A stretch of DNA of 64,000 bases from Comamonas avium (GTDB lineage: Bacteria > Pseudomonadota > Gammaproteobacteria > Burkholderiales > Burkholderiaceae_C). Where the stretch lies: NCBI RefSeq assembly GCF_014836675.1, contig NZ_JACSQK010000005.1, positions 110,392 through 174,391 of the forward strand. Direction: 5' to 3'. How positions within the stretch are numbered: position 1 is the stretch's first letter; each line of letters starts with the position of its first letter. Under the pieces are notes generated by a model. The model did not search any database. It worked only from the letters and a program-made list of their open reading frames with translations, and was not told where the DNA came from. The translations under genes were made by a program, and so were the position numbers. This document shows, in pieces, positions 6,335 through 27,264 of the stretch.

Positions 6335-6997
6335 TCAGGCGCTGTGCAGCAAACCCTGCTTTTCGATGAAAGCAATCACCGTATCCAGCCCTTCCAGTGT
6401 TTTGAGGTTGGTCATCACAAACGGCTTCATGCCTTTGGGCGTATTGCGCATGCGCTCGGTATCGCTGCGCATGATGTCCAGATTGGCGCCCACATGGGGA
6501 GCCAGATCGGTTTTGTTGATGACAAACAGATCACTTTTAGTGATGCCGGGGCCGCCCTTGCGCGGAATTTTTTCACCCGCTGCCACGTCGATGACGTAAA
6601 TCGTCAGGTCTGACAGTTCGGGGCTGAAGGTGGCAGCCAGGTTGTCGCCGCCTGATTCGATAAAGATGATGTCTGCATCCGGGAACTGGCCCAGCATGCG
6701 GTTGATCGCTTCGAGGTTGATAGAGGCGTCTTCACGAATGGCCGTGTGCGGGCAGCCCCCGGTTTCAACGCCCATGATGCGCTCGGCGGGCAGCGCACCG
6801 CTGATGGTCAGCAGGCGCTGGTCTTCCTTGGTGTAGATGTCGTTGGTGATGGCGATCAGGTCCCACTTGTCGCGCATGGCCTTGCACAGCATTTCAAGAA
6901 TGGTGGTTTTTCCGGAGCCAACGGGCCCACCAATACCGACGCGCAGAGGTGGCAGCTTCTTGGTACGCAGGGGAATGTGGTGCAGTGCAGAAGTCAT
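6335..6997 (-). CDS. ureG: Urease accessory GTPase UreG
   Basis: UreG, 220 residues, is the SIMIBI-class GTPase that delivers nickel and drives carbamylation of the urease active-site lysine, working with UreE, UreF and UreD. The P-loop GPVGSGKTT is at about residues 24-32, the nickel-binding Cys-Pro-His at 82-84 ([11 protein letters not shown]), and the guanine-specificity NKTDL near 160. It is the last gene of the minus-strand urease cluster, 103 bp after ureF. Nothing recognisable occupies the 207 bp between it and the next gene downstream. Confidence 0.97.
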
Positions 6998-7100: not shown

Positions 7101-7808
7101 TTAGCTGCGAAACAGCCGGGAGTACTGGTGCTCGTGCCGCGCAGAGAGGATGGCCAGCATGGGTGAGAAAGCCTGGCGCTGCCCATCAGGCAACGCCAAG
7201 GCGTGCTCGACAGCGGCAGGAATGTCTGCGGTCAGCCGCGCCAGAATGCGCTGGCCAGCGTTTTGCCCCAGGGGCACAGATTTGATGGCTGCCTGCACCA
7301 TGTTCTCGGCCCAGCCAAAGGTGTAGGCCAGCAGTGCATTGCGTGCTGTTGCACCCGTCAGCGTGGCGGCCAGCGCAAATGCCATGGGGTAGCTGGCATC
7401 CTGGGCAGCCAGCCAGCTCGTTTGCTGCATGGCTGCAGCGTCATCGGCATAGCGGTTCTTGAGCCATTCGATCAGAGAGCGCCCCATTTGCTCTGTCTGC
7501 AATCGCAGCTCACTGCTTTCGCGTGTGGTCAGCACCCAGGCATTGAGTGCTGCAAGGCGCGATGTGTCATGGCTGGCCCACGCGGGCATGGCTTGCGCAA
7601 TGGCCGCCATATCTGCGCGCGACTGGCTCAGGTGCAATTGCGCTACCAGCCAGCTGCAAGCTTCTGATTCCGTGGCTACCAGTGCTGCATTGACTGCAGA
7701 TTCAAGAGCTTCAGAGTAGGAAAAACCACCAATGGGCAGTGCTGGCGAGGCCAGCCACATCAACTGCAAAAAGCAATCCGGGGTGAGGGGCGGTGCAGGT
7801 GTGTTCAT
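7101..7808 (-). CDS. ureF: Urease accessory protein UreF
   Basis: UreF, 235 residues, is the all-helical accessory protein that, with UreD and UreG, forms the apo-urease activation complex and gates GTP use by UreG. The N-terminal block [21 protein letters not shown] and the central [16 protein letters not shown] region are characteristic. It starts only 4 bp after the Gdx-type exporter gene ends, so the two are almost certainly co-translated. Confidence 0.95.
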
Positions 7809-7812
7809 GCAC

Positions 7813-8139
7813 TTATTCCCCGCGCAGCGTGAGGAGTTTCAAACCCACAATACCCATGAGGATCAAACCAAAGCAGGCCATGCGTGCAACGCTGCGGTTT
7901 TCTCCCAGAGCCAGCATGCCGTAAACGGCCGTGCCAACGGCACCGATGCCTACCCATACGGCATAGGCCGTACCTACGGGAATGGTGCGCGTGGCCAGCG
8001 AGAGCAAATACATGCTGGCCGCAATGAAGGCCCCGCAAAACAGGCTGGGCCACAGCCGGGTGAAACCTTCAGTGCGTGGCATGGCGGCTGCGTAAAAGAT
8101 TTCGCACAGACCGGCTGCAATCAAAAAGACCCAGCTCAT
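7813..8139 (-). CDS. SMR family transporter, Gdx/SugE-like (guanidinium exporter type)
   Basis: A 108-residue protein with four membrane helices, in the Gdx (formerly SugE) branch of the small multidrug resistance family. Members export guanidinium in exchange for protons as dual-topology dimers. Glu13, Ser42, Tyr59 and Trp62, which line the guanidinium site in characterised Gdx proteins, are all present; the usual Trp16 is Tyr. The conserved PVGTAYAVW block is intact. The ATG at 8139 overlaps the ureE stop (ATGA), and ureF begins 4 bp after its stop, so it sits inside the urease accessory operon. Export of guanidinium or a related urea-like cation is inference from these residues and the location. 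Confidence 0.85.
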
Positions 8140-8768
8140 CCGCAACCGCCTTTGCTGTGCACATGCGTGCCATGGGCATGGCATGCCTGCTCGTGCGGGT
8201 GGTCACAGGTGCTGTGATCGTGGGAATGTGCATGCCCGTGATCGTGATCGTGGTGATGATCTTGTGCGTGGCTGTGCCCATGTCCATGGTGGCTGTGGCC
8301 ATCATGGGTCACATGGCCGCCGTAGGCACCGCCTTCAGGCTCAAAAGGCATATCAGCCTGTACCACGGTCATGTGCATGCTGCGCAGCATGTCGGCCAGC
8401 ACATGGTCGGGCTCAATCTTCAGGTGATCGGGCTGCAGCTCAATCGGCACATGGCGGTTGCCCAAGTGGTAGGCGGCGCGCACCAGATCAAAAGGGCTGC
8501 CGTGCACAGCGCAGGCCGTGATGTGCAGCACTTTCTGCGGCGCTGCAATCACACGCACCATGGAGCCATCCTCGGCCACCAGCACATCACCACCGCGCAC
8601 CGCCTGGCCACGGGGCAGGAAAACAGCCAGCTCACGGCCCTGGCTGTCCGTGGCTGCAAAGCGTGATTTCTGGCGGACATCCCAGTCGAGTTCCACGGTG
8701 GCTGCACGTTTGAGCAGTACGCTGGCCAGGCCATGGCCCTGGGCAAGGAGTTTGTTTGCGGTCAACAT
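8136..8768 (-). CDS. ureE: Urease accessory nickel metallochaperone UreE with long His-rich tail
   Basis: UreE, 210 residues, is the nickel-binding chaperone of urease maturation. The peptide-binding domain covers about residues 1-70 and the metal-binding domain about 75-145, including the conserved YHLGNRH and PDHVLADML segments. The last 60 or so residues carry 23 histidines with Asp and Gly between them plus several cysteines, so nickel storage is likely. The ATG at 8768 is chosen; an in-frame TTG at 8786 has no better support. The stop overlaps the Gdx gene start. A gamma-glutamylcyclotransferase-like gene is transcribed away from it, so ureEFG may have its own promoter in the 78-bp gap. 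Confidence 0.95.
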   Translation of the reverse strand: MLTANKLLAQGHGLASVLLKRAATVELDWDVRQKSRFAATDSQGRELAVFLPRGQAVRGGDVLVAEDGSMVRVIAAPQKVLHITACAVHGSPFDLVRAAYHLGNRHVPIELQPDHLKIEPDHVLADMLRSMHMTVVQADMPFEPEGGAYGGHVTHDGHSHHGHGHSHAQDHHHDHDHGHAHSHDHSTCDHPHEQACHAHGTHVHSKGGCG

Positions 8769-8846
8769 TGGTTTCTGACTTTTCAAAGAAGTGCGACAAG
8801 CTGGCGTGCTTTATGCATTCGACAGCACTTTGTTTCAATCGATAGC

Positions 8847-9338
8847 ATGACAAACATGTCAACCCCTACTGCGCTTTCTCTTCAGAAAAAATCCGACTGG
8901 CAGCCTTGTGGCGTGGACCATGTGGCCGTGTACGGCACGCTGCGCGCCGGTGGTGTCAATGAAATAGCACGCCTGCGCCCCGGCATCATCAGCACAGGCC
9001 GTACCACCTTGACGGGTACGCTGCATGATCTGGGCTGGTACCCGGGTCTGATTTTTCAAGGCACACAGCAGGTGCTGGCCGAGGTGTATCCGCTGGATCA
9101 CGCGCTGGAGCAAGTGCTGGACGGGTACGAAGGCATCTGGCCGCAAAACACGGGCGAATACACCAAACGTATCGTCACGCTGCCCGTGGCATTGACCAGT
9201 GGCAGCACGAAGATGATGGCGTTGCTGGTCTATGAAGCCTTGCCCGCCACGGTGCAGCAGGCACCGGTGATTGCAGCCAGCGACTGGCTGGCCTGGTACC
9301 AGAGCAAAGGTGTGCCACCGGGGTCTGCAGCAACCTGA
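8847..9338 (+). CDS. Gamma-glutamylcyclotransferase-like (AIG2/GGACT family) protein
   Basis: A 163-residue protein of the gamma-glutamylcyclotransferase fold. The substrate-binding YGTLR motif is seen as VAVYGTLRAGG, and the catalytic Glu is likely in LDGYEG near residue 85. Members form pyroglutamate or 5-oxoproline from gamma-glutamyl compounds, but many bacterial homologues are uncharacterised. It is the only plus-strand gene inside the urease cluster, divergent from ureE and convergent with the GNAT gene. ATGs at 8847 and 8856 are both plausible starts. Confidence 0.78.
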   Translation: MTNMSTPTALSLQKKSDWQPCGVDHVAVYGTLRAGGVNEIARLRPGIISTGRTTLTGTLHDLGWYPGLIFQGTQQVLAEVYPLDHALEQVLDGYEGIWPQNTGEYTKRIVTLPVALTSGSTKMMALLVYEALPATVQQAPVIAASDWLAWYQSKGVPPGSAAT

Positions 9339-9378: not shown

Positions 9379-9843
9379 TTAAATAACACGGCTCATAAAG
9401 CAGCTGTGGGGGTCTGGGTGGTAGCTGCCAAAAGGCGCGCAGGGCACAAAGCCATTGCGGGCATACAGGCGGCGTGCAGGCACAAAGAAGTCCTGGCTTC
9501 CCGTCTCCAGACTGATTCGCTGTGCGCCACTTAGCTGTGCCTGCGTCAGAACAAAATCCAGCAATTGCTGCGCGGCACCGGTGCCGCGGTGCTTGGCGTC
9601 GATACGCATGGTCTTGAGTTCAAGGTGTGCGCTGTCAATGGTCTTGAGTGCGCAGCTACCCACCAGCGCATCGTGCACCCATGCCGTCCAAAAGCGTATG
9701 CCAGGCAGGCGCAATTGCGCTGTATCCAGCGCATGCACGCTTTCTGGCGGCGATACGCGGTGCATATCTTCCAGGTGCGCACGCAAAAAGGCCACGACGC
9801 GAGGGTCGTGCGCTGCATCCAGTTCAAATCGAAAAGCGGTCAT
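9379..9843 (-). CDS. GNAT family N-acetyltransferase
   Basis: A 154-residue acetyltransferase of the GNAT superfamily. The acetyl-CoA-binding motif A is visible as MRIDAKHRGTGAAQQLLDF (R/Q-x2-G-x-G/A pattern), followed by ISLETGSQDFF and ARRLYARNGF, the usual C-terminal strand-helix. The ATG at 9843 lies 8 bp after the ureC stop, so it is probably read from the urease transcript. Its substrate is unknown; there is no evidence that it is needed for urease. Confidence 0.82.
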   Translation of the reverse strand: MTAFRFELDAAHDPRVVAFLRAHLEDMHRVSPPESVHALDTAQLRLPGIRFWTAWVHDALVGSCALKTIDSAHLELKTMRIDAKHRGTGAAQQLLDFVLTQAQLSGAQRISLETGSQDFFVPARRLYARNGFVPCAPFGSYHPDPHSCFMSRVI

Positions 9844-9851
9844 GGCATGCC

Positions 9852-11570
9852 TCAAAACAAGAAGTAGCGCTGCGCCATGGGCAGGCTGGTGGCAGGCTCG
9901 CACGTCAGCAGCTGTCCGTCAGCGCGCACAGCGTAGGTTTGCGCGTCCACCTCCATGCGGGGGGCCAGATCGTTGTGGATCATGTGCTGCTTTTGTACGC
10001 CGCGTATGCCTTTGACGGCAGACAGCGTCTTGAGCAGGCCAAACCGCTCTGCAATACCTGCGGCCAGACCAGCTTGTGACACAAAGGTCAGCGAGGTTCT
10101 GGTCAACGCACCGCCAAAACTGCCGAACATGGGGCGGTAATGCACAGGCTGTGGTGTGGGGATGGAGGCATTGGGGTCGCCCATGGCGGCCATGGCAATG
10201 AAGCCGCCCTTCATGATGACGGCAGGCTTGACGCCAAAGAACGCGGGCTTCCAGATCACGATGTCGGCCCACTTGCCCACCTCAATGCTGCCCACCTCGT
10301 GGCTGATACCGTGGGCAATGGCCGGGTTGATGGTGTATTTGGCGATGTAGCGCTTGACGCGGAAGTTGTCATTGCGTGCGCCGTCACCGCTCAATGCACC
10401 GCGCTGCTGCTTCATTTTGTGCGCGGTCTGCCAGGTGCGCAAAATCACTTCACCCACGCGGCCCATGGCCTGACTGTCAGAGCTGAACATGCTGATGGCA
10501 CCGATGTCGTGCAGGATGTCTTCGGCTGCAATGGTTTCCTTGCGGATACGGCTTTCGGCAAAGGCCAGATCTTCGGCAATGCCAGCGTCCAGATGGTGGC
10601 AGACCATGAGCATGTCCACATGCTCGTCCAGCGTGTTGATGGTGTAGGGGCGTGTGGGGTTGGTGGATGAGGGCAGTACGTTGGCCTCGCCCACCACTTT
10701 CAGAATGTCGGGCGCATGGCCGCCGCCTGCGCCTTCGGTGTGAAAGGTGTGAATGGTGCGGCCCTTGAAGGCGGCCACCGTGTCTTCCACAAAACCGCTT
10801 TCATTGAGTGTGTCGGTGTGGATGGCCACCTGAGTGTCGGTCTCTTCGGCCACCGTCAGGCAGTTGTCGATGGCCGCTGGCGTGCTGCCCCAGTCTTCGT
10901 GCAGTTTCAGGCCTATGGCCCCCGCGCTGATTTGCTCGTGCAGGCCTTGCGGCAGGCTGGCATTGCCCTTGCCCAGAAAGCCCAGATTCATGGGGAAGGC
11001 ATCGGCCGCCTGCAGCATGCGCTCCATGTTCCACGGACCGGGCGTGCAGGTGGTGGCAAAGGTGCCGGTGGCGGGGCCGGTGCCACCGCCAATCATGGTG
11101 GTCACGCCACTGGTCAGAGCCTCTTCAATCTGTTGCGGCGCAATGAAATGGATGTGGGTGTCGATGCCGCCTGCGGTGACGATGCTGCCCTCGCAGGAGA
11201 TGATTTCTGTGCCCGGGCCAATGATGACGTCCACCCCCGGCTGGGTGTCCGGATTGCCGGCCTTGCCGATGGCAGCAATGCGCCCGCCTTTCAATCCAAT
11301 GTCGGCCTTGACGATGCCCCAGTGGTCGACGATGAGGGCATTGGTGAGCACGGTGTCCATGGCCCCTTGGGCGCGTGAAAACTGGCTTTGCGCCATGCCG
11401 TCACGGATGGTTTTGCCGCCACCAAATTTCACTTCCTCACCATAGCCACCGGCGGCCAGTGTGAAGTCTTTTTCAACCTCAACGATCAGCTCGGTATCGG
11501 CCAGCCGCACGCGGTCGCCCACGGTGGGGCCAAAGGTTTCGGCGTAGGCGCGCTTGTCCATCGTGGCCAT
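9852..11570 (-). CDS. ureC: Urease alpha subunit UreC
   Basis: UreC, 572 residues (family about 567-573), is the catalytic urease subunit that hydrolyses urea to ammonia and carbamate. Nickel ligands and catalytic residues are recognisable: the DTHIHF histidines, the carbamylated lysine in [12 protein letters not shown], the ligand histidine region [15 protein letters not shown], the mobile-flap Cys-His in MVCHHLD, and the aspartate in [12 protein letters not shown]. All key residues appear intact. ureB ends one base before its start codon. Confidence 0.98.
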
Positions 11571-11571
11571 A

Positions 11572-11877
11572 TCAAAGTGCTCCTTGAATCAGGCCTCGAA
11601 AGCCGTAAATCTGGCGGTCACCGGCCACATCGACCAGCTCTACCGTGCGCTGCTGGCCTGGCTCAAAGCGCACAGCCATGCCACTGGCAATGTTCAGACG
11701 TTTGCCGTGCGCAGCCTGCCGGTCAAACTCCAGCCCGGCATTGGTCTCTGCAAAGTGGTAGTGAGAGCCGACCTGAATGGGCCGGTCGCTGGCATTTTTG
11801 ATCAGCAGCGTCGTAACCGGGCGGCCGGGGTTGAGGACATGTGCGCCTGCATCCACCAAAATTTCACCGGGAATCAT
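11572..11877 (-). CDS. ureB: Urease beta subunit UreB
   Basis: UreB, 101 residues, is the beta-sandwich structural subunit of the UreABC trimer. The signature start MIPGEI and the [10 protein letters not shown] block are intact. The ATG at 11877 is preceded by AAGGATAAAAGC, giving a good ribosome-binding site that overlaps the end of the small ORF at 11882-12019. A longer upstream frame exists but would lack the standard start. Confidence 0.97.
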
Positions 11878-11881
11878 GCTT

Positions 11882-12019
11882 TTATCCTTGGCGCAATGCC
11901 GCGCAGTGCATGGCACGGCTTATCAATAACTGGCGCTGCATCAGCGCGGAGATGGCCCACACCACCACCGTCGCCTGCCTTGCGGCAGCGCTGTACGGCG
12001 GGGCAGTGTGGCGTTTCAT
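11882..12019 (-). CDS. Candidate small ORF (45 aa) between ureJ and ureB
   Basis: This 45-codon frame starts with an ATG directly after the ureJ stop codon (TAA then ATG) and ends 4 bp before the ureB start. The encoded peptide begins [20 protein letters not shown] and has a short hydrophobic middle ([10 protein letters not shown]), so it could be a small membrane peptide. Perfect stop-to-start packing in a 142-bp gap of an otherwise tight operon is the main argument that it is translated. No family is recognised, and chance cannot be excluded. Confidence 0.45.
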
Positions 12020-12628
12020 TTAAGCCAGGCGGGTCAGCATGAAGGCCCCCAGTGCTGCAGTCAGCCCGCCAGCCAGCTTGGCAATCACCTGGTGGCGCTG
12101 CATGACTGCGTGGCCCAGCACGATGCCCGAGAGGTGCAGCAAGGCAGAGCCAGCGGCCATGCCAGCAATGGCACCCAGTGCAGCCAGCGCACTGTCTTGG
12201 GCCAGCTCGTAGCCGTGGGCGGCACCGTGAAAGAAGGCAAATACACCGGCCAGTGCGGCCGCTGCGCCCCAGGCCATTTTCTTTTGCACCATCACCAGCA
12301 GGCCCAGCACCAGCACCGATGCGGCGATCATGGGTTCGACCGCCGGGATATGCAGTCCCGCAAAACCGGCCAGACAGCCAGCAATGAGCAGCGCAACAAA
12401 GGCCGCTGGCGCGCGCCATGCGCTGGCCATGGTCAATGCACTCCATGCGCCCACAGCGAGCATGGCCGCCAGGTGGTCTGCACCGCCAAAGGGATGGGCA
12501 AAGGCGTGGCTCAGGCTGTCCAGAAAGTTGTGGTGGCCACCGCCGTCGGTGCTGATGTGTGCCATCGCAGACAGGGGCAGGAAAGAGGCAGCCGTGATGG
12601 CGGTGGTGATCAGATATTTGGTGTTCAT
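12020..12628 (-). CDS. ureJ: HupE/UreJ family membrane protein (putative nickel permease)
   Basis: A 202-residue polytopic protein of the HupE/UreJ family, found in urease and hydrogenase operons and believed to import nickel. It has an apparent cleaved signal (to AMAH), then the family signature HAFAHPFGGADHLAAMLAVG, whose His and Asp are thought to bind metal, and about six membrane helices including a second motif HGAAHGYE. It lies 50 bp after ureA and is followed without a gap by the small ORF. Nickel as cargo is family knowledge plus context. Confidence 0.9.
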   Translation of the reverse strand: MNTKYLITTAITAASFLPLSAMAHISTDGGGHHNFLDSLSHAFAHPFGGADHLAAMLAVGAWSALTMASAWRAPAAFVALLIAGCLAGFAGLHIPAVEPMIAASVLVLGLLVMVQKKMAWGAAAALAGVFAFFHGAAHGYELAQDSALAALGAIAGMAAGSALLHLSGIVLGHAVMQRHQVIAKLAGGLTAALGAFMLTRLA

Positions 12629-12678
12629 AGCTGTTAGCGCAGGTGAAGTAAGGGCCGGGTGCCTGAAAGGCTTGAAAT

Positions 12679-12981
12679 TCAAATAATCGGCTCGTGCACG
12701 GTGACCAACTTGGTGCCATCGGGGAACGTAGCTTCCATCTGGATGTCTGGAATCATCTCGGGCACGCCGTCCATCACGTCTTCGCGCGTCAGCACGGTGC
12801 GACCCTCGCTCATGAGCTGGGCTACGGTCTTGCCGTCGCGAGCGCCTTCCATCACAAAAGCACTGATCAAGGCGACGGCTTCGGGGTAGTTGAGCTTGAG
12901 ACCACGGGCTTTGCGCCGCTCGGCCAGCAAGGCAGCGGTAAAGATGAGCAGCTTGTCTTTTTCGCGGGGTGTCAGTTCCAT
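12679..12981 (-). CDS. ureA: Urease gamma subunit UreA
   Basis: UreA, exactly 100 residues as usual, is the small structural subunit of urease. The start [11 protein letters not shown] and the blocks [15 protein letters not shown] and [11 protein letters not shown] are canonical. The ATG at 12981 is the standard start although an open frame extends upstream. It is the first gene of the minus-strand urease operon, with a sigma-54 consensus promoter centred about 57 bp upstream (13031-13046). Confidence 0.97.
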
Positions 12982-13030
12982 GGCGTGATCGGGTGCAGTG
13001 CAAATGGGCGACAGCGCCCTGCACAGTCTT

Positions 13031-13046
13031 TGCAAGAGCCGTGCCA
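13031..13046 (-). promoter_or_regulatory. Sigma-54 promoter for the urease operon
   Basis: On the minus strand the sequence reads TGGCACG-GCTC-TTGCA, a complete match to the sigma-54 -24/-12 consensus with correct spacing. Transcription would start near 13020, about 40 bp before the ureA ATG. This is a sequence match; use by RpoN is inferred. Confidence 0.85.
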
Positions 13047-13066
13047 GTGCCAGCCTGGGCGCTAGC

Positions 13067-13109
13067 TTGGTGCAGGGGTGCTGCCTTGATTTGGTGCCAG
13101 GGTGCTGCC
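13067..13109. repeat. Direct repeat with NtrC-like half-sites between ureA and urtA
   Basis: Two 19-bp copies starting TTGGTGC (13067-13085 and 13091-13109) match at 17 of 19 positions with a 24-bp period. The TTGGTGC element equals one half of the NtrC consensus (TGCACCA-N3-TGGTGCA). They lie between the two divergent sigma-54 promoters, where an enhancer-binding activator would sit. Confidence 0.6.
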
Positions 13110-13185
13110 CGCAGCTGGCGGCCCGGTTTTTATTGGTGCGCAGTGCGGCCAAAGCAGTGCAGTCACACCGGCTATCGGTTTATGT

Positions 13186-13212
13186 TGCACCACCATGGGG
13201 ATTACGTGGTGC
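13186..13212. promoter_or_regulatory. Candidate NtrC-type site / inverted repeat upstream of urtA
   Basis: The stretch 13186-13202 has a perfect left NtrC half (TGCACCA), a 3-bp spacer and a partial right half (TGGGGAT). GCACCAC at 13187-13193 also forms a perfect inverted repeat with GTGGTGC at 13206-13212 (12-bp spacer). Activator binding is inferred. Confidence 0.45.
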
Positions 13213-13223
13213 GTGGCTCAAAG

Positions 13224-13239
13224 TGGCACATGGCTTGCA
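13224..13239 (+). promoter_or_regulatory. Sigma-54 promoter for the urea transporter operon
   Basis: The sequence TGGCACA-TGGC-TTGCA matches the sigma-54 -24/-12 consensus exactly in spacing and core bases. Transcription would start near 13250, about 60 bp before the urtA ATG. With the opposite promoter at 13031-13046 it forms a divergent pair. Confidence 0.85.
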
Positions 13240-13308
13240 AAGGGGGCACTGAGACCGCTGGTGTGTACCAGTGGAACCCATCAACCAGCCCTTTGAGGAG
13301 CACTTTCC

Positions 13309-14580
13309 ATGAACCAGCGTCGTTTCACTTTGAAAACCCTGGCTGCCAGCGCAGCGGTTGCCGGATTTGGTTTTGCGGGTTTGTCCGCCCAGGCTGCGGA
13401 CACCATCAAGGTGGGGGTGCTGCATGCGCTGTCGGGCACGATGGCGATTTCGGAGACCGCGCTCAAGGACATGGCGCTGATGACGATTGAAGACATCAAC
13501 GCCAAGGGCGGTGTTCTGGGCAAGAAGCTGGAGCCCGTGGTGATTGATACGGCCTCCAACTGGCCGCTGGCGGCGGAGCAAGCCAAGCAGTTGATCAGTC
13601 AGGACAAGGTGGCGGTCACCTTTGGCTGCTGGACTTCGGTGTGCCGCAAGTCGGTGCTGCCGGTGTATGAAGAAAGCAATGCGCTGCTGTTTTACCCAGT
13701 GCAGTACGAGGGCGAAGAGCTGAGCAAGAACGTGTTCTACACCGGTGCGGCGCCCAACCAGCAGGCCATTCCTGCGGTGGAGTACCTGATGGGTGAAGAC
13801 GGTGGTTCGGCCAAGCGCTGGGTGCTGCTGGGGACCGACTATGTGTATCCCCGCACGGCCAATAAAATTTTGCGCGCCTTCCTCAAATCCAAGGGTGTGG
13901 CAGACAAGGACATCATGGAAAGCTACACCCCGTTCGGGCATAGCGACTACCAGACCATCGTGGCAGACATCAAGAAGTTTGCAGCCGGTGGCAAGACTGC
14001 CGTGATCTCCACCATCAATGGCGACTCCAACGTGCCTTTCTACAAGGAACTGGGTAACGCAGGCATCAAGGCGACCGACGTGCCCGTGGTGGCTTTCTCT
14101 GTGGGTGAAGAAGAGCTGCGTGGCCTGGACCCCAAACCGCTGGTGGGCCATCTGGCTTCGTGGAATTACTTCATGAGCGTCAAGAACCCCACCAACGAAG
14201 CGTGGATCAAGCAGTGGAGTGCCTACGCCAAGGCCAAGAAGTTGCCCGGTCAATCCACCAAACCTTTGACCAACGACCCCATGGAAGCCACCTACGTAGG
14301 CATCCACATGTGGAAGCAGGCGGTTGAAAAAGCCAAGTCGCTGGAGGTGAACAAAGTCATTGCAGCCATGGCGGGCCAGACCTTCAAGGCACCGAGCGGC
14401 TTTACGCTGACCATGGATGCCAAGAACCACCACCTGCACAAACCTGTGCTGATTGGCGAAATCAAGGCCGATGGCCAGTTCAACGTGGTGTGGAAAACCA
14501 AGGCGCCCGTCAAAGCCCAGCCCTGGAGCCCCTTCATTGAAGGCAACGACAAGAAAAAGGACGAACCAGAAAAGAAGTGA
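13309..14580 (+). CDS. urtA: Urea ABC transporter substrate-binding protein UrtA
   Basis: UrtA, 423 residues, is the periplasmic binding protein of the high-affinity urea ABC transporter. The N-terminus carries RRFTLK followed by a hydrophobic stretch to AQA, a signal peptide with a Tat-like twin arginine. The mature protein has the type I periplasmic fold, with family blocks VGVLHALSGTMAISE, FGCWTSVCRKSVLPV and ALLFYPVQYEG that are typical of UrtA rather than amino-acid receptors. It is preceded by AGGAG and is the first gene of urtABCDE. Two strong hairpins separate it from urtB. Confidence 0.95.
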   Translation: MNQRRFTLKTLAASAAVAGFGFAGLSAQAADTIKVGVLHALSGTMAISETALKDMALMTIEDINAKGGVLGKKLEPVVIDTASNWPLAAEQAKQLISQDKVAVTFGCWTSVCRKSVLPVYEESNALLFYPVQYEGEELSKNVFYTGAAPNQQAIPAVEYLMGEDGGSAKRWVLLGTDYVYPRTANKILRAFLKSKGVADKDIMESYTPFGHSDYQTIVADIKKFAAGGKTAVISTINGDSNVPFYKELGNAGIKATDVPVVAFSVGEEELRGLDPKPLVGHLASWNYFMSVKNPTNEAWIKQWSAYAKAKKLPGQSTKPLTNDPMEATYVGIHMWKQAVEKAKSLEVNKVIAAMAGQTFKAPSGFTLTMDAKNHHLHKPVLIGEIKADGQFNVVWKTKAPVKAQPWSPFIEGNDKKKDEPEKK

Positions 14581-14586
14581 CGCAGC

Positions 14587-14698
14587 GCTGAAATGGCAGA
14601 CGCGAGGTGTGCCTCCAGAGGCTGCCATTTCAGCGAGCAGGGATGCGCGTTGTGCAACCCGGTTTCTTTTCAGGGGCCCGCCCTTGCTGAGGCGGGCC
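14587..14698 (+). promoter_or_regulatory. Two RNA hairpins between urtA and urtB
   Basis: The urtA-urtB gap contains a perfect 13-bp stem (14587-14599 with 14622-14634) and an 8-bp all-GC stem (14675-14682 with 14691-14698). Neither is followed by a clear T-run. Such hairpins after a binding-protein gene usually stabilise the upstream message or reduce read-through, so that the receptor is made in excess over the membrane parts. Confidence 0.7.
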
Positions 14699-14718
14699 GC
14701 TGGCCGATTGGATCGCTT

Positions 14719-16323
14719 ATGTTTTTCCTCCTTTTGCACAGACTCAGGCCATGGCTGGGGGCCGCTGTGGCTGCCATGGCGCTGAGCCAGGCCCCCGCCC
14801 ATGCCCTGACGGCAGAACAAGCCTTTGCCATGGCCGACGGCGACAACAACAGCCGCATTGCCGCCATGCAAGATGCCGTTGCAACGGGAGATGTCACCCG
14901 TGTGGCCGATTTTTTGAATGCCCTGCGCGATGGGCAAGTGCAATACGGTGCAGGCCGTGCCTTCATTGTGCGCGGTGATCAAGCACTGGATCCGGTGACA
15001 GGCAAGGCCACAGAACTGCCCGAAGGTGTGGACGACGCCAGCACCAACAACCGCATGCGCCGTGAAATTGGCAACGCACAGGCAGCGCTGAATTTGTTTG
15101 TGGGCAATGACAGCGAACGCCTGAGTGCGGCCAGGGCCATGCTCCAGGGCGCAACGCCGCAGCGCCTGCCCATGCTGGACAAGGCGCTGGCCAAAGAAAG
15201 CAGCGAGGCCGTCAAGGCAGAGCTGGAAATGGCCCGCTCTGCGGCCTTGCTGGGCAGCAGCAAGGCTGCTGAACGCACGGCTGCCGCCGCCTTGCTGGCC
15301 CAGCGGGCAACGCCTGCCACACGCCTGCTGCTCAGTGAACAGCTGACCCAGGAGCAAGACGAGAAAGTGCAGGTGGCACTCAAGCGTGCGCTGGCAGAAG
15401 TCAATGACAAGCTGGCCTGGGGTGAGCGTCTGGGCGTGGCCTTTACCGGCATCAGCCTGGGCTCCATCTTGCTGCTGGTGGCGCTGGGCCTGGCCATTAC
15501 CTATGGGCTGATGGGCGTCATCAACATGGCCCATGGCGAGCTGATGATGATTGGTGCCTATGCCACTTATGTGGTGCAAGGCGTTTTTCGCACCTATGTG
15601 CCAGAGTTTTTTGACTGGTACTTGCTGGCTGCTGTGCCTGCATCGTTCATGGCGGCGGCTCTGGTCGGGGCCATCATGGAGCGTGGTGTGCTGCGGTTCT
15701 TGTATGGCCGCCCGCTGGAGACACTTCTGGCCACATGGGGCATATCGCTGGTGCTGATGCAGCTGGTGCGTACCTTTTTTGGTGCGCAAAACGTGGCCGT
15801 AGAAAACCCGGTGTGGATGAGTGGCGGCTGGCAGGTGCTGCCCAACCTCACGCTGCCGCTCAACCGCTTGATCCTGATTGTTTTTGCCTTCGCCGTGCTG
15901 GCTGGGGTGGCCTACATCATTGCCAGAACACGCCTGGGCCTGTTTGTGCGGGGTGTCACGCAAAACCGCCCGATTGCGTCGTGCATGGGGGTAAATACCG
16001 CGCGGGTAGACACCATGGCGTTTGCGCTGGGCAGTGGCATTGCCGGTCTGGCCGGCTGCGCCTTGAGCCAGGTGGGCAACGTTGGACCTGACCTGGGCCA
16101 GAGCTACATCGTGGATGCGTTCATGGTGGTGGTGCTGGGCGGGGTTGGCCAGCTGGCGGGCACGGTCTACGCCGCTCTGGGGCTGGGCATTCTCAACAAG
16201 TTCCTGGAAGGCTGGACCGGTGCGGTGCTGGCCAAGATTGCGGTGCTGGTGTTCATCATTGCTTTCATCCAAAAGCGCCCCCAAGGCATTTTTGCGATGA
16301 AGGGGCGCAGTGCAGAGGCCTAG
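14719..16323 (+). CDS. urtB: Urea ABC transporter permease UrtB
   Basis: UrtB, 534 residues, is one of two membrane subunits of the urea transporter. It has a signal-like hydrophobic start, a non-membrane N-terminal extension of about 220 residues that is characteristic of UrtB, and then a LivH-type membrane domain beginning near GISLGSILLLVALGLAITYG. The ATG at 14719 gives the hydrophobic N-terminus MFFLLLHRLRPWLG; the open frame extends further upstream without support. A Comamonadaceae-type repeat follows before urtC. Confidence 0.93.
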   Translation: MFFLLLHRLRPWLGAAVAAMALSQAPAHALTAEQAFAMADGDNNSRIAAMQDAVATGDVTRVADFLNALRDGQVQYGAGRAFIVRGDQALDPVTGKATELPEGVDDASTNNRMRREIGNAQAALNLFVGNDSERLSAARAMLQGATPQRLPMLDKALAKESSEAVKAELEMARSAALLGSSKAAERTAAAALLAQRATPATRLLLSEQLTQEQDEKVQVALKRALAEVNDKLAWGERLGVAFTGISLGSILLLVALGLAITYGLMGVINMAHGELMMIGAYATYVVQGVFRTYVPEFFDWYLLAAVPASFMAAALVGAIMERGVLRFLYGRPLETLLATWGISLVLMQLVRTFFGAQNVAVENPVWMSGGWQVLPNLTLPLNRLILIVFAFAVLAGVAYIIARTRLGLFVRGVTQNRPIASCMGVNTARVDTMAFALGSGIAGLAGCALSQVGNVGPDLGQSYIVDAFMVVVLGGVGQLAGTVYAALGLGILNKFLEGWTGAVLAKIAVLVFIIAFIQKRPQGIFAMKGRSAEA

Positions 16324-16454: not shown

Positions 16455-17606
16455 ATGAATGCTTCAACAACGTTGAAATCGAATGTGTTTGTGCCAGTCT
16501 TGACATTGCCCGGCCGCAAACCCTTGCTCACCAAGGCCGGCTGGTCCGCCTTCATGGTGGCGCTGATCGTGGTGTGCGCGCTGGCACCGGTGCTCAATCT
16601 GTGGGTGGCCGAAGGCAGCGTGTTTCACCTTTCGGACTACGCGGTGCGCCTGCTGGGCAAGATCATGTGCTACGCCATCTGTGCGCTGGCCATGGACCTG
16701 ATCTGGGGCTACACCGGCATCCTGAGTCTGGGGCACGGGCTGTTCTTTGCTTTAGGTGGCTATGTGATGGGCATGTACCTGAGCCGCCAGTCTGCCGGGG
16801 CTGATGAGCTGCCCGCCTTTATGGTGTTTCTGGCATGGAAAGAGCTGCCCTGGTTCTGGGCCCTGTCAGACAGTTTTTTGGCCACTTTCATTCTGATCTT
16901 TGCGGTGCCGGGTGTGGTGGCCTTTGTGTTTGGCTGGTTTGCCTTTCGCTCTCGCATCAAGGGGGTGTACTTTTCCATCATCACGCAGGCCCTGACGTAT
17001 GCGGCCATGCTGCTGTTCTTTCGCAACGAGACGGGCTTTGGCGGCAACAACGGCTTTACCGATTTCAAGCGCATTCTGGGCATGCCACTGGCTACGCAGG
17101 AAATGCGCATGGCGCTGTTTGTCATTACGGGCTGCACATTGCTGGGCTTTTTTCTGCTGGCGCGCTGGCTGGTGCGCAGCAAGTTTGGCCGGGTACTGCA
17201 GGCCGTGCGCGATGCGGAAACGCGTGTCATGTTCTCGGGCTACTCGCCGCTGCCCTACAAGCTGACCATCTGGGTGATCAGCGCCATGATGTGCGGCGTA
17301 GCGGGGGCGCTGTATGTGCCGCAGGTGGGCATCATCAACCCGGTGGAAATGTCGGCAGCCAGCTCGATCGAGATTGCAGTGTGGACGGCGGTGGGGGGGC
17401 GGGGCACATTGGTGGGGCCGATTGTGGGGGCCTTTGCCGTCAACGGCGCCAAGAGCTGGCTGACCGTGGCCGCGCCCGAGTTCTGGCTCTACTTTCTGGG
17501 TGGCCTGTTCATTGTGGTGACGCTGTTCATGCCCCACGGCATCGTGGGTGTGGTGCGCAAGCTGCGCAGCAAGCTGCAAGGCAATAAGAAGGCAGGTGTG
17601 GCATGA
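16455..17606 (+). CDS. urtC: Urea ABC transporter permease UrtC
   Basis: UrtC, 383 residues, is the LivM-type second membrane subunit. It has about ten hydrophobic segments and the family block DLIWGYTGILSLGHGLFFALGG (shown in part), plus the cytoplasmic EAA-like loop GRVLQAVRDAETRVMFSG that contacts the ATPases. The ATG follows GAAGGATCACAGTT. The stop overlaps the urtD start by 4 bp. Confidence 0.95.
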   Translation: MNASTTLKSNVFVPVLTLPGRKPLLTKAGWSAFMVALIVVCALAPVLNLWVAEGSVFHLSDYAVRLLGKIMCYAICALAMDLIWGYTGILSLGHGLFFALGGYVMGMYLSRQSAGADELPAFMVFLAWKELPWFWALSDSFLATFILIFAVPGVVAFVFGWFAFRSRIKGVYFSIITQALTYAAMLLFFRNETGFGGNNGFTDFKRILGMPLATQEMRMALFVITGCTLLGFFLLARWLVRSKFGRVLQAVRDAETRVMFSGYSPLPYKLTIWVISAMMCGVAGALYVPQVGIINPVEMSAASSIEIAVWTAVGGRGTLVGPIVGAFAVNGAKSWLTVAAPEFWLYFLGGLFIVVTLFMPHGIVGVVRKLRSKLQGNKKAGVA

Positions 17607-18475
17607 CCCCGGATCTGCTGGAAGCGGGCGCAACCCGCATGCGTACCGCTGCTGTGAAGGCTGCGCAAAACACCGAATCCGGTGGCCGCAGCGCCAGCAT
17701 GGCGCGCATTGCAACCCCGGGTGAAGTCGATGTCACCCACGGGCGCATCTTGTATCTGGAAGACGTGCATGTCAGCTTTGATGGTTTCAAGGCCATCAAC
17801 GGCCTGAACCTGGACATTGCCCCGGGTGAGCTGCGTTGCATCATTGGCCCCAATGGTGCGGGCAAAACCACCATGATGGACATCATCACCGGCAAGACAC
17901 GGCCCCAGAAGGGCTCCGTGTTCTTTGGCTCCACCATCGATTTGCTGCGCCATAACGAGCCGCAAATTGCGCAGCTGGGCATTGGCCGCAAGTTCCAGAA
18001 ACCCACGGTGTTTGAGCAGCTGACGGTGTTTGAAAACCTGGAGCTTGCCCTGAAAACGCACAAGGGCGTCAAACACTCGATGTTCTTCAAGCTCAGCAGC
18101 GAACAAGGCGACCGGCTGGCACAGGTGCTGCACACCATCCATCTGGCGGGCAGTGTGAACCGCATGGCGGGTGAGCTGTCGCACGGACAAAAGCAGTGGC
18201 TGGAGATTGGCATGCTGCTGATGCAAGACCCCAAATTGCTGCTGCTGGACGAGCCCGTGGCGGGCATGACCGATGACGAAACCGCGCGCACGGCGGAGCT
18301 GTTTCTGCGCCTCAAAGGCAAGCACTCGCTGATGGTGGTGGAGCACGACATGTCCTTCATCAACACCATCAGCGAAAAAGTAACCGTGCTGTGCGAGGGC
18401 AGCGTGCTGGCTGAAGGCACGCTGGCACAGGTGCAGGCGGACGAACGCGTGATTGAGGTGTATCTGGGCAGGTAG
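17603..18475 (+). CDS. urtD: Urea ABC transporter ATP-binding protein UrtD
   Basis: UrtD, 290 residues, is the LivG-type ATPase. Walker A is GPNGAGKTT near residue 87, the ABC signature is LSHGQKQWLEIG, Walker B is LLLLDEPVAGM and the switch His is in VVEHD. It has about 45 extra N-terminal residues before the ATPase domain; the ATG at 17603 overlaps the urtC stop, which favours this start, but an internal ATG at 17699 is possible. Confidence 0.94.
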   Translation: MTPDLLEAGATRMRTAAVKAAQNTESGGRSASMARIATPGEVDVTHGRILYLEDVHVSFDGFKAINGLNLDIAPGELRCIIGPNGAGKTTMMDIITGKTRPQKGSVFFGSTIDLLRHNEPQIAQLGIGRKFQKPTVFEQLTVFENLELALKTHKGVKHSMFFKLSSEQGDRLAQVLHTIHLAGSVNRMAGELSHGQKQWLEIGMLLMQDPKLLLLDEPVAGMTDDETARTAELFLRLKGKHSLMVVEHDMSFINTISEKVTVLCEGSVLAEGTLAQVQADERVIEVYLGR

Positions 18476-18646: not shown

Positions 18647-19339
18647 ATGCTCAAAGTCGACAACCTGCACCAGTACTACAGTGGCTCGCACATCTTGCGG
18701 GGAGTGAGTGTGACGGCGCAGCCGGGCAAAGTCACTGTCTTGCTGGGGCGCAACGGGGTGGGCAAGACCACGCTGCTCAAAAGCCTGATGGGGCTGGTGC
18801 CCATCAAGAGTGGCGCCATCGAATGGAAGGGGCAGCCCATCCACAAACTCACGCCGTATGAGCGTGCGCGCCGAGGCATTGGCTTTGTGCCTCAGGGCCG
18901 GGAGATTTTTGGCCGCCTGACGGTGGAGGAAAACCTGCGCATGGGGCTGGCCTATCAAAGTGGCAGCACACCCATTCCGCCAGATCTGTACGAGTTGTTT
19001 CCTGTCTTGAAGCAAATGCTGCATCGCCGTGGTGGTGACCTCTCTGGCGGCCAGCAGCAGCAACTGGCCATTGCCCGTGCGCTGGCCCCCGCGCCGGGGC
19101 TGCTGATTCTGGATGAGCCCACCGAAGGCATTCAGCCCAGCATCATCAAAGACATTGGCCGTGTGGTCCGCATGCTGGCCAAAGAGCGTGGCATGGCCGT
19201 GCTGCTGTGCGAGCAGTACTACGACTTTGCCGAGGAGCTGGCGGACGCATATGTGGTGATGGAGCGTGGTGAAGTGATTGCCGCCGGGCCGGGCGCTGAG
19301 ATGCAGGACAAGGGCATTCAGAAGCTGGTGGCAATTTAG
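18647..19339 (+). CDS. urtE: Urea ABC transporter ATP-binding protein UrtE
   Basis: UrtE, 230 residues, is the LivF-type ATPase that completes the transporter. Walker A is GRNGVGKTT, the signature is LSGGQQQQLAIARAL and Walker B is LLILDEPTEGIQPSI; the EGIQPS variant is typical of UrtE. It lies 171 bp after urtD, separated by a palindromic repeat, so its expression may be tuned separately. It is the last gene of the operon. Confidence 0.95.
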   Translation: MLKVDNLHQYYSGSHILRGVSVTAQPGKVTVLLGRNGVGKTTLLKSLMGLVPIKSGAIEWKGQPIHKLTPYERARRGIGFVPQGREIFGRLTVEENLRMGLAYQSGSTPIPPDLYELFPVLKQMLHRRGGDLSGGQQQQLAIARALAPAPGLLILDEPTEGIQPSIIKDIGRVVRMLAKERGMAVLLCEQYYDFAEELADAYVVMERGEVIAAGPGAEMQDKGIQKLVAI

Positions 19340-25425: not shown

Positions 25426-26256
25426 TTACATTGACCAGATGCGTGGCGCTGTCCCCGGCAGTTGCCAGTGCTCTTGGCGCCAGCACACGCGCACTTGTTG
25501 CCACAGTTGCATCAAGGGTTCCACCACTGGCGCCAGGCCACGCAGTACCAGCATGTGCGCGTTGGGTGCGGTAACGCCGCACCACTGGCCCTGGGGGTGT
25601 GCATCCAGTACGGCGCGTGTGGCGTCCAGCAAGTGCTCGCGCTGTGTGCGCGTCAAGGCAGTGCCGCAGGCCAGCAGCATGCTGCCCATGCAGCGCTGGC
25701 CAGCCAGCCCCAGGGGGCTGTCCATCAGGTAGGCATCATCGGCACGCACGGTGCCGTGTTCCAGCCAGTGGCCTGGCCACTGCATGTGCTGGGTAAAACG
25801 GCCTTGCACAAAGGGCTCACTGGCGTGGGGCAGGCCAAAGGCGGTGATGTCCCAGGCCATCAGTTCAGCGCCTTCGGCCACATCCATGTGCAGCAGGTTG
25901 TGGGCATCGCAGGCGTTGTAGGCCAGTGCTTCCAGCGGCAGCCATTCCAGCCGCGCCCCGGCCTGCAGCCTGAGGTGGGTGCGCTGGGCGGCAGGTTCGC
26001 CACTGGATTTGTAAAAACGGGTGGCACCGGGCGTGGTGACCAGCGCATGGGCATGGCTGCCCACTTGCACCGTAATGTCCAGCGTGTCGCCGCTGACCAG
26101 ACCGCCGGGCGGGTGCACCAGCACGTTGTGGCACACCGCGTCTCCCTCGGGGTAGAGGCTGCGCAGCACCCGCAAGGGCCCATCGTGGCGGAAGTGCACG
26201 CGCGAGCGCCCTGCACTGAGGGAGTAGTTGAGATCAAGTTGAGCAAGCCAGGCCAT
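25426..26256 (-). CDS. ureD: Urease accessory protein UreD (UreH), separated from the other urease genes
   Basis: UreD, 276 residues, is the scaffold that binds apo-urease together with UreF and UreG during nickel insertion. The family blocks LNYSLSAGRSRVHFRHDGPL, VLVHPPGGLVSGD and TTPGATRFYKSSG are clear. The ATG at 26256 is chosen; an in-frame TTG at 26268 is possible. It lies about 13 kb from ureA-ureC and downstream of the deaminase gene in the same direction (113-bp gap), so it may depend on that promoter. Confidence 0.95.
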   Translation of the reverse strand: MAWLAQLDLNYSLSAGRSRVHFRHDGPLRVLRSLYPEGDAVCHNVLVHPPGGLVSGDTLDITVQVGSHAHALVTTPGATRFYKSSGEPAAQRTHLRLQAGARLEWLPLEALAYNACDAHNLLHMDVAEGAELMAWDITAFGLPHASEPFVQGRFTQHMQWPGHWLEHGTVRADDAYLMDSPLGLAGQRCMGSMLLACGTALTRTQREHLLDATRAVLDAHPQGQWCGVTAPNAHMLVLRGLAPVVEPLMQLWQQVRVCWRQEHWQLPGTAPRIWSM

Positions 26257-26285
26257 GCGCTCAGACAAGCAAGAAATGCGCCCAA

Positions 26286-26302
26286 TGCACCAAGCTGGGG
26301 CG
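26286..26302. promoter_or_regulatory. Candidate NtrC-like site upstream of ureD
   Basis: TGCACCA-AGC-TGGGGCG has a perfect left half and a 5-of-7 right half of the NtrC consensus, and closely resembles the site at 13186-13202 upstream of urtA. It lies between the deaminase stop and ureD. Single-site evidence only. Confidence 0.3.
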
Positions 26303-26369
26303 TGATGCAGTAAAAAAGGCTGCAGTTTGCGGGGGGGGCCAGCCGCTTTTCAAGGGGCAAGTGCTGCGC

Positions 26370-27026: not shown

Positions 27027-27042
27027 TGCACAGGCCGTGCCA
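27027..27042 (-). promoter_or_regulatory. Sigma-54-like promoter upstream of the deaminase
   Basis: On the minus strand TGGCACG-GCCT-GTGCA matches the -24 element fully and the -12 element except for its first T. Start would be near 27016, about 74 bp before the deaminase ATG. The 27043-27260 stretch upstream holds only one clear TGGTGCA half-site. Confidence 0.5.
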
Positions 27043-27264
27043 AAGCGGGTGGGAATTTGTAGGTCAGAGGATGGGTGATTTGTAAGTTGATGTGAGCTGG
27101 CGCGTGGGGTGGAGAAAGAAGAGGCATTGATTGCCGGCGCTGCATTCAAAAACAGGGGCTGACAACGCCGCTTGATCCAGGACCCAGCGTTTGAATGCGA
27201 TGGAGAAAACCCAGATGGAGATTGGACAGAGATGGTGCAGCGCTGTATGGGCAGGGCGCAGGAC

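Follow-up and report, generated by a model that had tools for sequence, protein, structure and literature searches.

A predicted pair of divergent sigma-54 promoters flanking NtrC-like sites lies between the urease and urea-transport operons of Comamonas avium

Results

Organization of the ure and urt genes

The window, which is the whole 64-kb stretch analysed (G000:C15:110392-174391, from a genome of 3.93 Mb), carries urease and urea-transport genes on opposite strands. On the minus strand, ureA (12679-12981), the first gene of the ure transcript, and ureB (11572-11916, putative start) were identified by tblastn in relatives, and ureJ of the HupE/UreJ family (12020-12640, putative start) by a PF04955 match on the open reading frame that contains it (12020-13024). 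The genes ureC (9852-11570; PF00449, PF01979), ureE (8136-8786; PF05194, PF02814), and ureF (7101-7808; PF01730) follow on the same strand, together with ureG (6335-6997), which matched the CobW/HypB/UreG domain PF02492 and was named by reading and place. On the plus strand, urtA (13309-14580; PF13433) encodes the urea-binding protein and is the first gene of the urt transcript; it is followed by urtB (14593-16323; PF02653) and by urtC, urtD, and urtE (16455-17606, 17603-18475, and 18647-19339, respectively), which were assigned from their order and from a reading of the translations. UrtA was 93% identical over residues 27-423 to the homologue of Xenophilus sp. Marseille-Q4582, the nearest named UrtA, a similarity that points to the Comamonadaceae, and no ureA was found in the 3 kb before urtA in the record of that strain.

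The ure cluster also holds an acetyltransferase gene (9379-9903, minus strand) and, on the opposite strand, a gamma-glutamyl cyclotransferase-like gene (8733-9338, plus strand). A SugE-type SMR transporter gene lies between ureE and ureF (7813-8184, minus strand); its best NCBIfam match was SugE, with 111 bits, which is under the 126-bit cut-off. SugE-type proteins export guanidinium, a function that would suit a urea operon.

Sigma-54 sites in the ureA-urtA gap

Two divergent sigma-54 (-24/-12) sites lie in the 327-bp interval that separates ureA from urtA. The predicted promoter of the ure operon lies at 13031-13046 on the minus strand (read from 13046 to 13031 as TGGCACGGCTCTTGCA), and that of the urt operon at 13224-13239 on the plus strand (TGGCACATGGCTTGCA). 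In the sequence 12701-13600 the two sites point apart and are separated by 177 bases, so that the positions, spacing, and outward orientation given in the initial annotation are all correct. Both fit the TGGCACG-N4-TTGCW class, with the -24 GG and -12 GC elements at fixed spacing. Predicted transcription starts, which we placed by assuming the usual spacing from the -12 element, fall near 13020 for ure (leader of about 39 bases) and near 13250 for urt (leader of 59 bases).

With a sigma-54 matrix made by hand from an assumed consensus and assumed weights, the two sites ranked first and second in the window, scoring 19.1 and 18.3 bits against 16.6 bits for the third. The window contains three exact matches to TGGCACN5TTGC, two of which are the ure/urt pair. 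When one mismatch was allowed, 20 matches were found against 18.3 expected from shuffles; since this count is at chance level, we gave weight only to near-perfect matches. In the entire genome TGGCACN5TTGCW occurs 9 times (5+4 on the two strands), the ure/urt pair accounting for 2 of these, and the same pattern written backwards occurs 2 times (1+1). At the genome rate, with the pair itself included, approximately 0.0007 strict sites are expected in a gap of 327 bp. The earlier estimate of 0.03 chance occurrences of an 11-bp exact match per 64 kb is correct for a uniform sequence. The genome encodes a single rpoN, which was the only match over the TIGR02395 cut-off in a profile search.

Conservation of the divergent layout in relatives

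We searched 200 genomes of the same family by tblastn, found ureA in 149, and fetched 130 ureA loci; the 19 left out comprise G019, G050, G100, and G124, which were near contig starts or overlooked, and fifteen that were low-ranked. Upstream coverage is no more than 1.5 kb for the first 30 fetched loci and about 3 kb for the other 100, with a few shortened by contig ends, so that a urtA farther off would be missed. Within this reach, urtA was located divergently upstream of ureA at 25 of the 130 loci, the window included. The divergent ureA-urtA layout is thus a minority arrangement among the relatives. Only one further genome in the sample (G128) belongs to the same genus, and it gave no ureA match; the cluster may therefore be a gain in the host genome or a loss in G128.

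Among the 25 divergent loci, a sigma-54 site scoring 11 bits or more faced urtA at 24 and ureA at 21, with both present at 21, in comparison with a rate of 1.6% on one strand in single-letter shuffles. Among the 39 listed loci, L078 and L230 had no site of at least 9 bits toward urtA, and L078, L052, L234, and L241 had none toward ureA. Some of the counted sites are oddly placed, giving predicted leaders of 186, 337, and 1199 bases on one side in L172, L188, and L220, respectively, and leaders of 0-3 bases on the ure side in L171, L220, and L221. In named records, ureA was divergent within 3 kb at 14 of 80 UrtA loci, several of whose contigs end sooner; with L012 excluded, where 1.6 kb separates ureA from urtA, 12 of the 13 divergent loci had a site toward urtA and 8 had one toward ureA that reached 11 bits. 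In the 300 bp 5' of urtA, 25 of 81 sequences (window included) had a sigma-54 site scoring 15 bits or more, against 0.25% of single-letter shuffles, and at those divergent loci that have one such sites start 64-98 bases before the urtA ATG.

The distance from promoter to promoter ranged from 15 to 304 bp across 26 loci; it was 15 bp in L221, 50 bp in L021, and 198 bp in L058. For further comparison we used 31 regions, that is, the 39 listed loci minus the redundant or odd L012, L063, L067, L078, L188, L220, L230, and L234. The urt promoter outscored the ure promoter at 27 of the 31 loci, a proportion tilted toward the urt side by the removal of L078 and L230, which lack a urtA-facing site; the window itself is not among the 27. 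The middle regions between the promoters had an identity of 0.758 against 0.755 for single-letter shuffles (378 pairs from 28 regions). Similarity between these regions does not exceed that of shuffled DNA, so the motifs have persisted as the surrounding sequence turned over. The retention of the sites in place among relatives supports the prediction, made in the initial annotation, that both the urease and the urea-transport operons are under sigma-54 control.

NtrC-like sites between the promoters

An NtrC matrix was built from 40 sites in 30 glnA upstream regions of the family (at most 2 sites from each, picked by an assumed consensus); glnA was chosen to keep the ure-urt region out of the training set. 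With this matrix three weak sites resembling those of NtrC, which are of the GCACC-N5-GGTGC type, were detected between the promoters. The site at 13056-13076 (score 7.7) contains the first TTGGTGC, its centre lying at about -46 with respect to the ure start and -184 with respect to the urt start; that at 13080-13100 (score 6.2) contains the second TTGGTGC and is centred at about -70 and -160, respectively; and that at 13184-13204 (score 8.8) contains the TGCACCA annotated earlier, which lies at 13186-13192, and is centred at about -174 and -56, respectively. The two 19-bp direct repeats described previously are likewise present on the plus strand within 13067-13109 (13067-13085 and 13091-13109; 24 bp start to start, 89% alike), partly overlapping the first two sites. 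The best score of 8.8 gave a p value of 0.09 against dinucleotide-preserving shuffles, which is not significant alone, and 17, 22, and 45 positions of the window score at least 8.8, 7.7, and 6.2, respectively. The stretch is unique in the window in having three sites with scores of at least 6 within 160 bp.

Over 30 of the 31 regions (L221 was too short), the mean best NtrC score was 9.6 against 1.7 for dinucleotide-preserving shuffles (SD of the shuffled means, 0.74). The half-site GCACCA was found in 25 of the 31 middle regions, against 5.2 expected from shuffles of the same kind, and was absent from 6. Each middle region holds from none to five half-sites, at a density of 12.0 per kb against 2.2 per kb in the window. 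When 57 half-sites were aligned, a second, degenerate half appeared at the spacing typical of NtrC, with G at +11 in 34 and C at +14 in 33. Taken together, palindromic dyads showed no enrichment at that spacing in the 31 middle regions (6 against 7.4 expected), although the commonest single dyad, GCACC-N5, was found in 4 of the 31. For sites in these regions with a score of at least 7, 35 of 40 centres fell between -50 and -190 relative to the urt start, and 30 of 36 fell between -40 and -170 relative to the ure start. Good sites lying midway were observed in L058 (one mismatch; -117/-134) and L021 (three mismatches; -53/-50).

The TGGTGC half-sites are oriented mostly toward urtA (17 loci against 4 opposite, with 4 ties). 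In total, 42 point toward urtA and 15 away, whereas the counts for hexamers obtained by permuting these letters were 100 and 115, without such a bias. At glnA the half-site polarity was 62:30 against 196:140 for other permutations, which indicates that part of the bias there is composition. The full sites with a score of at least 7 exhibited no polarity in the ure-urt set (20:17) in comparison with 61:29 at glnA.

In loci without a divergent urtA, a sigma-54-like match of at least 12 bits toward ureA was found in 79 of 104; by our own count, 32 of these 79 are separated from the ATG by 11-15 bases and are possibly not promoters. The half-sites in such loci were at background, 2.4 per kb.

Sigma-54 activators encoded in the genome

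In a profile search of the host genome, a single ntrC exceeded the TIGR01818 cut-off, and it lies in a glnA-ntrB-ntrC operon preceded by a sigma-54 site and NtrC palindromes. In this combination the ure-urt region resembles the glnA-ntrBC promoter of the host genome and the family. The two NtrC sites of the host glnA scored 22.6 and 22.2 against 8.8 for the best ure-urt site, a comparison that flatters the glnA sites because they were in the training set; they deviate from the NtrC consensus by 1 and 2 mismatches, respectively, against 3 at ure-urt.

Three other full sigma-54 activator domains were found in the genome, together with three weak partial matches. One belongs to a PilR-like protein encoded beside a PilS-like kinase, and two belong to NorR-like proteins that have a GAF domain and are encoded beside flavohaemoglobin-like and nitrite-reductase-like genes; we presume these names partly from a reading of neighbours and domains. 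NtrC is the only one of the sigma-54 activators found in the genome for which a role in nitrogen limitation is evident. No NorR-type site, which we take to be GTCA-N3-TGAC, was found in the ureA-urtA gap. Elsewhere in the genome a strict sigma-54 site (L082:1501-1516; G000:C12:76121-76136) precedes a pilin gene (PF00114), where regulation by PilR would place it.

The separate ureD gene

The gene ureD (25426-26268, minus strand; PF01774) lies apart from the ure operon, 6 kb past urtE and convergent with the urt operon. In the 25 genomes with divergent ure and urt, ureD followed urtE in the same direction in 5 (L291, L292, L294, L296, and L297) and was convergent in 10, and no urtE was present in the fetched stretch in the other 10. 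The top NtrC-matrix score of the window, 16.2, was obtained at 26284-26304, immediately upstream of ureD. Across the 25 genomes the NtrC signal upstream of ureD was flat (0.68 against 0.78 for single-letter shuffles), and we therefore rejected a separate conserved NtrC/sigma-54 promoter for ureD. In 5 of the 25, against 1.2% of shuffles, a sigma-54-like site scoring 11 bits or more lay upstream of ureD, at differing positions; a sigma-54 promoter for ureD is possible in some genomes. The sigma-54 site that ranks third in the window (16.6) lies at 27027-27042 on the minus strand, before a deaminase-like gene that precedes ureD, and is accompanied by an NtrC-like site at 27221-27241 (score 12.4).

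An alternative divergent partner of ureA

At 74 of the 130 family loci, ureA is divergent from a gene for a membrane protein with a permease-like start. In the example that was read (L184/L285), the permease-like part is fused to a hybrid histidine kinase (L285:853-4536), and the next gene encodes a response regulator with a LuxR-type domain (L285:4536-5564). Nearly all of the listed partner frames are long enough for the same fusion, mostly with more than 1,000 residues, L184/L285 being the only example read. Pfam models identified the kinase and receiver domains; the permease part matched none of them and, by sequence, no solved structure, and in our reading it appears NCS1-like. It was detected in 109 of the 200 family genomes at E values up to 1e-80, and no match was found in the host genome at that limit. 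The gene recalls AmsSR of Acinetobacter baumannii, the nearest described system that we encountered, in which AmsS is the kinase, and the two are likened by description only; the accessible text on AmsSR describes 14 membrane spans and a hybrid kinase (PMC10112286). The permease-kinase encoded beside urease could be a nutrient-sensing transceptor.

At these 74 loci, sigma-54-like sites scoring 11 bits or more were found toward ureA in 56, toward the kinase gene in 45, and in both directions in 42. The mean best NtrC score in the 400 bp before ureA was 4.3 against 0.8 for single-letter shuffles, with 6 of the 74 reaching 12, and is well below that of the urt-type regions.

Discussion

We take Burkholderia cenocepacia and Paraburkholderia phymatum to belong to the same order of bacteria as the host of the window. 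As far as the accessible accounts go, the same kinds of genes are controlled there by an NtrC system and sigma-54, as implicated by mutants: the ure and urt transcripts are lost in an ntrC mutant of B. cenocepacia H111 (PMC5491218), and P. phymatum, whose urea transporter is preceded by a sigma-54 box, is impaired on urea when rpoN or ntrB is mutated (PMC5748707, PMC5979394). Unlike the present locus, the accessible text of these three reports describes no divergent ureA-urtA sigma-54 pair. In Herbaspirillum seropedicae a sigma-54 promoter also precedes urtA and Ntr control has been proposed, whereas urtABCDE lies upstream of ure and the urtA promoter is the only one mentioned in the accessible text (PMC3093359). 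Urease genes have been predicted in NtrC/sigma-54 regulons (PMC5343134, PMC12316311), together with urea transporters in the former; as accessible, the former assigns both functions to NtrC control in Alteromonadales, Oceanospirillales, Rhizobiales, and Rhodobacterales and not in betaproteobacteria, and the latter describes sigma-54 control of urease as mainly alpha- and beta-proteobacterial. The divergent pair is described in the accessible text of neither, unlike here, and we found no description of it in the literature searched, as far as accessible, outside of which most subscription journals lie. Control of urea use by NtrC and sigma-54 is already known, and the locus is a well-made example of it and not a new kind of control.

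The glnA-trained matrix, the GCACCA enrichment, the presence of one rpoN and one ntrC, and the mutants published for related genera support NtrC control of ure and urt, as had been annotated from the window. The conserved sites likewise support sigma-54 control of both operons, as far as sequence can indicate. We propose that two divergent sigma-54 promoters with an NtrC cluster between them allow nitrogen shortage to turn on both operons, and we assign this reading a probability of about 0.83. During nitrogen shortage NtrB phosphorylates NtrC. Phosphorylated NtrC would then assemble on the cluster of weak sites between the promoters, and DNA looping would let the cluster-bound NtrC open the two sigma-54 promoters, switching on the uptake of urea (urtABCDE) together with its hydrolysis (ureABC and the accessory genes). 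One NtrC cluster common to both promoters is plausible, and sharing would be the simplest reading of the arrangement.

Two of the sites lie near the ure promoter and one lies at the other end of the gap, near the urt promoter, a distribution that would also suit an arrangement in which each sigma-54/NtrC promoter uses its own site, no NtrC is shared, and the closeness reflects divergent packing. The range of promoter spacing, 15 to 304 bp in the 26 loci, is in keeping with this arrangement, since no fixed shared geometry has been kept. The sites nearest the promoters, however, are only 46-56 bp from the predicted starts, which is close for an enhancer and unusually so for use by the adjacent promoter, and the midway sites of L058 and L021 would be either shared or of service to one side only; we consider such independent use somewhat unlikely. 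A crosswise use, in which the sites beside one promoter would act on the opposite one at a distance typical of enhancers (-160 to -184), is a still more tentative suggestion. The sites at -46 to -70 would then lie too near the adjacent promoter to assist it and may repress it at high levels of phosphorylated NtrC.

Sigma-54 promoters served by an activator other than NtrC would be compatible with the three further full activators in the genome, but the neighbours of these mark them as PilR-like and NorR-like, the gap has no NorR-type site, and the enriched motif is that of NtrC, which makes this alternative very improbable. The one-mismatch matches to the sigma-54 consensus are no more frequent than chance, as would be expected if the pair were fortuitous and the operons were truly under sigma-70 or local regulators; the retention of both sites in place within sequence that cannot be aligned leaves hardly any likelihood for such a coincidence.

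On the more tentative crosswise reading, the orientation of the half-sites toward urtA and the higher score of the urt promoter in most loci other than the window could mean that the array favours import before hydrolysis. Under the proposed joint control, one small intergenic region would tie urea import and hydrolysis to one nitrogen-starvation signal, and the natural variants of the family, with 15 to 304 bp between the promoters and from none to five half-sites, form a series for examining how closely two sigma-54 promoters could share NtrC.
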